Positions 1-2,453 of a stretch of 46,452 bases of DNA are shown in pieces. The notes beneath the pieces were generated by a model that worked only from the letters and a program-made list of their open reading frames with translations, was not told the DNA's origin and ran no database searches. The number at the start of each line of letters is the position of its first letter. Position 1 is the first letter of the stretch. Location: NCBI GenBank assembly GCA_030600545.1, contig JAUVLV010000015.1, forward strand, positions 1-46,452. Direction: 5' to 3'. This stretch comes from Candidatus Aegiribacteria sp. GTDB lineage: Bacteria; Fermentibacterota; Fermentibacteria; Fermentibacterales; JCC-6. The translations under genes were made by a program, and so were the position numbers.

Positions 1-26
1 GGGGCCGGGCCTAACATCTAAACATT
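1..26. repeat. Left arm of 26-bp perfect inverted repeat flanking the RAYT gene
   Basis: ggggccgggcctaacatctaaacatt is the exact reverse complement of 1006-1031. Confidence 0.9.
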
Positions 27-924
27 ATGTCGGTTTATTACTCGTATTTAGGGAGTCATGAGTTTGATAAACTTGTCTTTCTCTGATTATTCTTCCGATT
101 GTTACAACATGCATATTTATAAACTCAGCAATTTCTTTCTGAGTGTATCCATGCTTTGAATATGCTGTGAAGATCAATTTATTTCTTGATTCTTTAGTAA
201 GGAATCTGAGATCTTTAAAGAGTGAGGATAGATTCTCTCTGCATGCATATCGCTGTTCCCTTGTAATATCTATATTATCCTTGTATTCACCGATTCTGTT
301 AGTAAGTACTTCCATGAAACTTTTGTTACCCAGAATCAAACCAGTTCTGATATCCTTCATTGGTGAATCAGCGTTGATGCCATCCATAACGAAGTTTATG
401 TAACTTCTACGAGCAAGTGAAAAATCACTGTCAAACTGGGCTAGAATCCAGTCTGTTGTCAGGAATGGACTGATTTTTTCAGCAGTACCAATGGTATGAC
501 AATAGCTGCTCCACTTGTATTCTGATGGATGATTTACAATCCCGGCTCTCACAGGATTGAGAACAATATATCGGCACAGTTCAAGGAGATAGTTATCTCT
601 TTGCACAATAATAGCTTTGAATCTTCCTTGAAATACATGACCAACGTGATCATATTGCTTATTGAAATACTGGGCATAAATCGAGTTTAACCTGTGTATT
701 CCTGCAGACAGATTGGCATCAGGAGTCTCTATAAGTAAGTGGTAATGGTTTCCCATGATACAGTATCCATGACAAATGAAGTTGAATGCTTTGGTACAGC
801 TTTCCAGAGTATCAAGAAATTTGTACCTGTCATCATCATCTATGAAGATTATAGCTTTACCGTTGCCACGTGCGGTAACGTGATACAAGGCTCCCGGATA
901 TTCGATTCTCAATTGCCTGCTCAT
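25..924 (-). CDS. REP-associated tyrosine transposase (Y1_Tnp / RAYT family) with C-terminal helix-turn-helix-like region
   Basis: 299-aa ORF. N-terminus RIEYPGALYHVTARGN, HUH-type motif GNHYHLLIETP, then VGHVFQGRFKAIIV and LELCRYIVLNPVRAGIV are typical of Y1_Tnp/RAYT. The C-terminus KHGYTQKEIAEFINMHVVTIGRIIRER looks like an HTH. Confidence 0.93.
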   Translation of the reverse strand: MSRQLRIEYPGALYHVTARGNGKAIIFIDDDDRYKFLDTLESCTKAFNFICHGYCIMGNHYHLLIETPDANLSAGIHRLNSIYAQYFNKQYDHVGHVFQGRFKAIIVQRDNYLLELCRYIVLNPVRAGIVNHPSEYKWSSYCHTIGTAEKISPFLTTDWILAQFDSDFSLARRSYINFVMDGINADSPMKDIRTGLILGNKSFMEVLTNRIGEYKDNIDITREQRYACRENLSSLFKDLRFLTKESRNKLIFTAYSKHGYTQKEIAEFINMHVVTIGRIIRERQVYQTHDSLNTSNKPT

Positions 925-1005
925 ATTACCAGTTTACTCATAAATGGGATGTATTTCAAGTGCTGAAAAAAATAGGTACAATATCATTGATAATAAAATA
1001 GACAA

Positions 1006-1031
1006 AATGTTTAGATGTTAGGCCCGGCCCC
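1006..1031. repeat. Right arm of 26-bp perfect inverted repeat, overlapping the 3' end of the SHMT-like gene
   Basis: aatgtttagatgttaggcccggcccc is the exact reverse complement of 1-26. It contains the stop codon of the SHMT-like CDS. Confidence 0.9.
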
Positions 1032-2453
1032 CCTGAGGTTATCGGCGAAGAGTTTTGCGTATTCACCGGTCGGGAACGCTGATTCCAATGCTCCTGCAGC
1101 AAGAGTAATACTCTCTTTCAGGGGAAGGGTGTAGCGCATTACTGTAAATTTCTTCCGGAAATCGGCCACCTCATCGGCAACATCTTCGTTCTTTATGATT
1201 ATTCTTGCCATCAATTCCGCCAGTTGACCGAAATCATCTTCGTTCATTCCGAATCTGGTCATTTCCGAAACGCCTGTTCTTATACCGCTTGAGTAAAGGA
1301 ACGTTTCGTCATCGGGAAGAGCCTGGTAATTGACGATTATATTGTTTTCCTGGAGGCGGTCAGCGACTTCAGAACCCTCGCCGTGTTCCACCACACGGAC
1401 AACAACCTGATGTGTATGGGTGTATCCGTCAGCCGGATCACCTTCAACCGCAAGTCCGTTATCGGCAAGGTGTTTTGCGAAGGCTCTTGCGTTGGAAAGA
1501 ACCTTGTTCTGGTATTCATCCTTGAATGCGTTCATCTCGGTAGTGGCAACAAGAAGTCCAAGAAGGGTGGCAAGATGGTGATTGCTGGTGCTTCCGGGGA
1601 AAGATCTGCTCTTGATATCCAGCCAGAGTTTTCTCAGAGGGGTTTTCTTTACCATGTTGCTGACTATTACACCGCGCTGTGGCCCGAAGAAGGTTTTATG
1701 GGTCGATCCGGTAACAACATCCGCACCATCCGCAAGCGGAGTCTGGAAAGCTCCGTAAATACCGAGTACATGAGCCATGTCGTACATGATGATCGGCCTG
1801 TCATCCCAGTCCGCAACCTCGTCGGCCATTTCCTTGACCGGTTCAGGGTAGAGGAACATACTCTTTCCGAAGATTACGAGTTCCGGACGGGTCTGGCGGA
1901 CCGTTTCGAGCATCCTCGGTACATCTATCCTGTAGGGATTGCTTTCCATCACAGGGAAATTGACGCAGTTCTCTTTACCGGTCTCAGGATTGATATCCAC
2001 GAAATTGAAAAGCGCTCCGAAGGGCTGGCTGGAAAGGTGGCCTCCCAGCCCCAGATTGTTGTTCATAACGGAGTGAAGCTTTCTGAAAGTTCCATCAGGG
2101 GTGGACCGATTCACGAATTTAGTTGCTGCTTCAAAAATGATCTGGTTCGCCATCTGACCGCTTATTGGTCTTAATTCAGCTTCCTGGCACTGGAAATACT
2201 CCATTATTGCTTCTACGGCCTCTTCCTCTATTTCTCTGATGAAATCGGTTCCATGATAGAAATAGACTTCCTTGCCTTTCATTCTTTTATGCTCAGCGTA
2301 TCTGCCGGCTGGATCACACAATTCGCAAATTTTAACAAGGGGACTGGCAGTATTTTCAGAGGGGATAAGATTAACACACTTTCTCTGTCTCCACAGGTTG
2401 TTTTTGCGTATTCTTCCAAATAGTTCATCCATTTTTTGCGACAAATCGGCCAT
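1011..2453 (-). CDS. glyA: Divergent serine hydroxymethyltransferase-like PLP enzyme
   Basis: 480 aa. NLIPSENTASPLV, SGQMANQIIFEA, MYDMAHVLGIYG and a PLP-lysine motif TGSTHKTFFGPQRGVIVSN match the SHMT fold; several canonical motif residues differ. Confidence 0.75.
   Translation of the reverse strand: MADLSQKMDELFGRIRKNNLWRQRKCVNLIPSENTASPLVKICELCDPAGRYAEHKRMKGKEVYFYHGTDFIREIEEEAVEAIMEYFQCQEAELRPISGQMANQIIFEAATKFVNRSTPDGTFRKLHSVMNNNLGLGGHLSSQPFGALFNFVDINPETGKENCVNFPVMESNPYRIDVPRMLETVRQTRPELVIFGKSMFLYPEPVKEMADEVADWDDRPIIMYDMAHVLGIYGAFQTPLADGADVVTGSTHKTFFGPQRGVIVSNMVKKTPLRKLWLDIKSRSFPGSTSNHHLATLLGLLVATTEMNAFKDEYQNKVLSNARAFAKHLADNGLAVEGDPADGYTHTHQVVVRVVEHGEGSEVADRLQENNIIVNYQALPDDETFLYSSGIRTGVSEMTRFGMNEDDFGQLAELMARIIIKNEDVADEVADFRKKFTVMRYTLPLKESITLAAGALESAFPTGEYAKLFADNLRGAGPNI

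Follow-up and report, generated by a model that had tools for sequence, protein, structure and literature searches.

RAYT-like genes with a long terminal inverted repeat (TIR) on either side are known as TIRtrons or TIRYTs, and the part of Di Nocera et al. (2013, PMC3733652) drawn on here describes TIR families that also occur in dimers and clusters, with GGGGWSAS at the arm end in part of the published TIRs. The sections consulted of another study assign TIRYTs to TnpAREP subclass 2.1, which carries HTH domains at the C terminus (PMC6006769). RAYTs have also been found flanked by inverted REPs, without signs of IS-like mobility (Nunvar et al. 2010, PMC2817692), and in the work on REPINs they are described as apparently incapable of self-mobilization (Bertels and Rainey 2011, PMC3116915). 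Published work has given no sign of RAYT gene mobility (PMC2817692, PMC3116915, PMC6006769). The open questions addressed here are how RAYTs spread repeats and whether RAYT genes still move. The original prediction for the locus described below held that terminal inverted repeats are not a known feature of RAYTs, which is wrong, such arrangements having been published (PMC2817692, PMC3733652). Our literature search found no work on transposases in Aegiribacteria.

The window, i.e. the whole stretch of DNA analysed here (46,452 nt), is the complete contig C16 of a 2.29-Mb, 74-contig MAG of Candidatus Aegiribacteria sp. with an estimated completeness of 73%; position 1 is a contig end. Positions 1–26 are the exact reverse complement of positions 1006–1031 (both given on the forward strand), whereas by arithmetic about 2e-7 perfect 26-bp inverted repeats would be expected by chance in 46 kb. 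Ungapped extension through the imperfect inner parts (27–36 and 996–1005, forward strand) yields 36-nt arms at 1–36 and 996–1031 that are 92% complementary, confirming both the exact repeat and its imperfect inward continuation as originally predicted. On the reverse strand, positions 25–924 encode a RAYT of 299 aa, the stop codon of which (25–27) overlaps the final two bases of the perfect left arm; the outer edge of this arm is the contig end. The SHMT-like gene (1011–2453, reverse strand; Pfam SHMT, E = 4e-41), orthologues of which in the genus have a RAYT downstream, adjoins the cassette with its 3′ end and is completed by it, the perfect right arm (1006–1031) encoding the C terminus GAGPNI*. 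Both ORFs agree with the original description. The last six codons and the stop of the SHMT-like protein (1011–1031) come from a mobile arm, and in lineage-B genomes, defined below, SHMT ends in NLRKLT* instead. The gene found on the left side of the cassette in relatives had no match in a search of the window's own genome, the contig ending at that point.

The RAYT protein matches Pfam Y1_Tnp (E = 1e-10) and NCBIfam REP_Tyr_transpos (E = 7e-22; 78 bits, two below the cut-off of 80), and carries HYH at residues 60–62 and the catalytic Tyr119; HUH and Tyr119 are kept in 13/13 RAYTs examined. Its C-terminus gives a weak, sub-threshold match to HTH_3 (E = 0.005), and that of the RAYT of G001 matches HTH_23 above its cut-off (E = 1e-5). 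A sequence search of solved structures gave no match. Thirteen members of the genus carry an intact RAYT gene at this 3′ end of SHMT, and dN/dS of 0.14–0.25 indicates constraint by purifying selection. An arms-included unit corresponding to 1–1031 (~1.03 kb) is also found in G014, G002, G011, G006 and G010, and in inverted form in G007. We consider it very probable that this unit is a complete arm-bounded cassette, a TIRtron, in which a gene for a RAYT-type (IS200-like HuH/Tyr) transposase lies within lineage-specific terminal inverted repeats, and that such RAYTs spread arms and occasionally move the cassette. The transposase would most likely recognise its own arms; acting in trans, it would spread short arm-bounded inverted pairs, which are REPIN/MITE-like, through the genome, and acting in cis it would occasionally move the whole cassette. 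We infer that arm cutting is the work of the RAYT and that this enzyme acts on single-stranded DNA.

The window arm belongs to a dispersed family. Pattern searches, with the reversed pattern as control, found at least 13 copies of its 22-nt core in its own genome at ≤3 mismatches (reversed control, 0), located on contigs C16, C21, C26, C35, C38, C43, C70 and C74; the genome-wide search for the 26-mer that had been proposed was therefore positive. Across 19 genomes of the genus, the arm counts follow the RAYT lineage at SHMT, with 10–28 copies in genomes of lineage A, 3–15 in those of lineage B, and none in the lineage-C genomes G001 and G004 or in G008, which lacks a RAYT; the reversed control gave 0 in every genome. 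Lineage-B arms are few, and the lineage-C arm in its G004 version has 14 copies, found in G004 only. In a scan of 84,980 species genomes, the exact arm pattern returned 61 stretches, all of them from Candidatus Aegiribacteria or Candidatus Fermentibacteria. The dispersed arms and the presence of the cassette in relatives support the first of the three explanations offered originally, namely, a RAYT-associated element with its ends on the 3′ end of a gene. The second, an inverted duplication of the SHMT (glyA) end, was rejected, since arm copies are present at many loci without SHMT sequence and other arm families bring different SHMT ends.

At least three arm families are found at SHMT, going with RAYT lineages A, B and C, and comparison of the assemblies shows that they match the dispersed copies of each genome. 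The lineage-A arm, GGGGCCGG, departs from GGGGWSAS at position 5, the lineage-B arm, GGGGTCAG, fits it, and the lineage-D arm, GGGGTCGT, departs from it at position 7. The lineage-D RAYT has 54% protein identity to lineage A, and its arms read GGGGTCGTATCTTGAATTTTGG. Within single genomes, arm variants are common to the copies: the GGCACC end is present in all 17 listed arms of G005, and nearly all arms of G006 read TTTAAATG, a pattern that would follow from maintenance of a separate set of arms by each RAYT. Almost every RAYT sampled in the family has inverted arms of its own. This extends to more distant RAYTs at L057, L058, L059 and L060 (34–43% identical), the arms of which end in GGGACG in some cases, so arm-bounded RAYTs are common in the family.

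The arms often occur in inverted pairs of about 72–146 bp with GGGG outermost, and on folding the two arms of such a pair form a single long hairpin (z of −12 to −13 against shuffles). A single arm is not palindromic and folds no better than its shuffles, which led us to reject a REP with its own hairpin as the identity of the arm; the GTAG head is likewise absent from the arm consensus. The small units thus have the architecture of a REPIN without the REP. No consistent excess of 2–9-bp direct repeats, as expected of a short target-site duplication, was found at 57 lineage-A and 43 lineage-D units, and empty sites of small pairs in relatives are not clean to the base. At lineage-D units, the flanks show inverted symmetry (TTATC...GATAA) in excess over shuffles at 2–4 bp. 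Two lineage-D pairs (L201:575–720 and L205:566–711) are nested in lineage-A pairs, and the bases beside the inner element differ between the two in a symmetric manner, ATC...GAT in one and ATA...TAT in the other.

The cassette site is the convergent 3′–3′ junction of the SHMT-like gene and a neighbour gene, the latter known from relatives. Where the junction is assembled, nearly every member of the genus has the RAYT next to SHMT, with both genes pointing the same way. All of these comparisons were made on assemblies, the genomes being incomplete drafts and mostly or all MAGs. They show a difference of cassette between the sister species G002 and G009, the SHMT genes of which are 95.6% identical: G002 carries a lineage-A cassette and G009 a lineage-B one, and identity breaks off at the SHMT-side arm and is regained at the outer boundary of the opposite arm. 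Well-supported branches of the SHMT tree force at least three such A/B cassette changes. Furthermore, within lineage A the dS of RAYT is 0.19–0.86 of that of SHMT, many pairs being 2–5 times less diverged (e.g. 0.25 for RAYT versus 1.29 for SHMT in G014/G002), a reduction that could in part reflect locus-specific rates. Between G014 and G002, the cassette is 91% identical, as opposed to 74% and 68% for the adjoining 100 nt on the SHMT side and the other side, respectively. Such a step in identity at the arms speaks for a cassette that moved as a discrete unit and against exchange by way of the genes on either side. The closely related G006 (L096) and G010 (L097) have similar SHMT and RAYT but different genes, probably paralogues, beyond the cassette, with identity there of at most 61% per 100-nt window versus 69–88% for G005/G006. 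The end of C23 and the start of C55 of G009 (L101, L102) share exactly 127 nt within the 5′ end of the RAYT gene, an overlap suggestive of a branch of the assembly graph at this gene.

The identity step bears on the alternative that the RAYT is domesticated and immobile, its cassette standing at SHMT by descent, its arms maintained in trans and the differences at the site arising by homologous recombination through flanking genes. Although its presence at SHMT in most genus members under purifying selection would fit such an account, as would the treatment of RAYTs in the literature as single-copy and non-mobile (PMC2817692, PMC3116915, PMC6006769), we regard it as unlikely: flank-driven exchange was not seen, the cassette being more similar than both of its flanks, and the lineage-D RAYT lies at different loci in different species. 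Indeed, comparison reveals an insertion polymorphism for lineage D. Site D1 is occupied in the clade of G006, G010 and G017 and empty, with its flanks adjacent, in eight species (G002, G005, G007, G009, G011, G013, G015 and G016), for seven of which the empty junctions were aligned; several of the D1-empty species carry a lineage-D RAYT elsewhere. For this lineage, the immobile account is hard to hold.

Lineage D also presents apparent stages of decay to MITE size. At site D2, a full cassette of ~930 bp is found in G007, G009 and G015, a 376-bp remnant in G013 and an 81-bp unit in G002. The right 55 nt of the 81-bp unit (L171:101–181, G002:C8) match the cassette end (cassette L183:3995–4924, G009:C67) with one difference, and on this sequence series a MITE was apparently born in place by internal deletion of a full lineage-D RAYT cassette. 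Several further internally deleted RAYT copies exist at other loci, which also speaks against an immobile RAYT.

The ends of the elements bear a second kind of trace. Of 277 arm ends, 21 have a tandem duplication across the outer arm boundary, made up of the final few bases of the arm and a few flank bases (e.g. at L204, L222, L190, L194 and L241), whereas 0.18 were expected with random boundaries and 0 with shuffled flanks; swapping flanks between units was uninformative as a control because all units end alike. The duplications are 12–16 bp long, mostly 12–14 bp, and the inner breakpoint lies 6–8 nt inside the arm in 19 of the 21. Such duplications would result if two staggered nicks were made around the boundary of the element and then filled in. 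In addition, direct duplications flank 4 of the 15 larger cassettes or remnants tested, of 98, 73, 40 and 21 bp around L190 4000–4356, L193 2483–2807, L187 3651–4584 and L184 3999–4932, respectively; their variable length is unlike that of a normal target-site duplication. Tentatively, and with somewhat less than even confidence, we read the locus as a recently active RAYT mobile element that would move between species as a cassette, repeatedly enter the SHMT 3′–3′ junction, flip in place and leave a footprint of its cut geometry, namely, a tandem duplication with one breakpoint 6–8 nt inside the arm and the other 5–9 nt outside. If so, extant genomes record how MITE/REPIN-like units arise from an autonomous parent.

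The flipping in place is seen in comparison as a single precise inversion. Compared with G002, G007 has ~1.08 kb of sequence, both arms included, in reverse orientation; the SHMT-side bases at the junction are the same as in G002, and so is the outer base on the other side, which comes from a second contig. This inversion would require the RAYT and would not have arisen by ordinary arm-to-arm recombination. The contig of G007 stops within the left arm, and that of the window stops where its left arm has its outer edge; populations with a mixture of orientations would fit these contig ends, which are not evidence on their own. The precise inversion also raises the alternative that the arms are the recombination site of an invertible switch, serving mainly for phase variation through flipping of the RAYT segment and not for transposition. 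Several orthologous small pairs with interiors in opposite orientation (e.g. L305/L247, 80% identical directly versus 97% when inverted) would agree with it, but small pairs are alike at many loci and a flipped interior may represent replacement by another copy. Moreover, the inversion at SHMT is found in one genome only, and a switch leaves the dispersal of arms and the presence or absence of cassettes unexplained, which makes it very improbable that switching is the main role of the arms. Least credible of all is an artefact of assembly or binning at the end of a contig, including the inverted state of G007: the named genomes compared are MAGs and the window and G007 contigs stop in the left arm, but for the arms this reading, together with the chimeric assembly listed as a third explanation originally, is refuted by the presence of both arms within single contigs of six relatives (G014, G002, G011, G005, G006 and G010), the final k-mers of several MAGs (127–141 according to record titles) are longer than the arms, and the junctions of G007 agree with those of G002 at single-base level.

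The genus provides a natural series with matched arms, comprising intact, exchanged, inverted and internally deleted cassettes, an 81-bp MITE and an empty site, so that arm recognition and cutting are directly testable on defined substrates.

Among known systems, the cassette is most like TIRtrons/TIRYTs: a RAYT-like gene lies within long terminal inverted repeats other than GTAG REPs, the arms start with GGGG and have copies elsewhere as dimers or clusters, and HUH and Tyr are kept. A C-terminal domain of HTH type may be a further likeness, its match being weak and sub-threshold in the window protein. It differs in that lineage-A arms read GGGGCCGG rather than GGGGWSAS, which lineage B fits. 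As in REPtrons, a transposase gene is placed between inverted copies of a genome-abundant repeat, and repeat and gene co-vary; unlike in REPtrons, there is no GTAG (or GTRG) head and no stem-loop in a single arm, and the RAYT gene is found at more than one location. The small units resemble REPINs in having two inverted copies with a short spacer, one long hairpin and a cognate RAYT, and in behaving as miniature non-autonomous mobile units, whereas the arm is not palindromic, the family is small (about 10–30 arm copies per genome) and the 81-bp unit is traceable to internal deletion of a RAYT cassette. A Y1 HuH transposase and the lack of target-site duplication at small units are shared with IS200/IS605 elements. 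The latter are without terminal inverted repeats, whereas the ends described here are inverted copies of each other. Classical DDE MITEs and IS elements differ from the present units, which have no short target-site duplication of fixed length. Overall, the TIRtron cassette in the window is a kind of object already known, and what is new relative to the consulted parts of the literature is the comparative evidence for whole cassettes that move, are swapped at a single site, become inverted and decay to MITEs, as seen in sister species with different cassettes, the lower dS of RAYT, the precise inversion, the different loci and empty site of lineage D, the internal deletions and the 12–16-bp tandem duplications.
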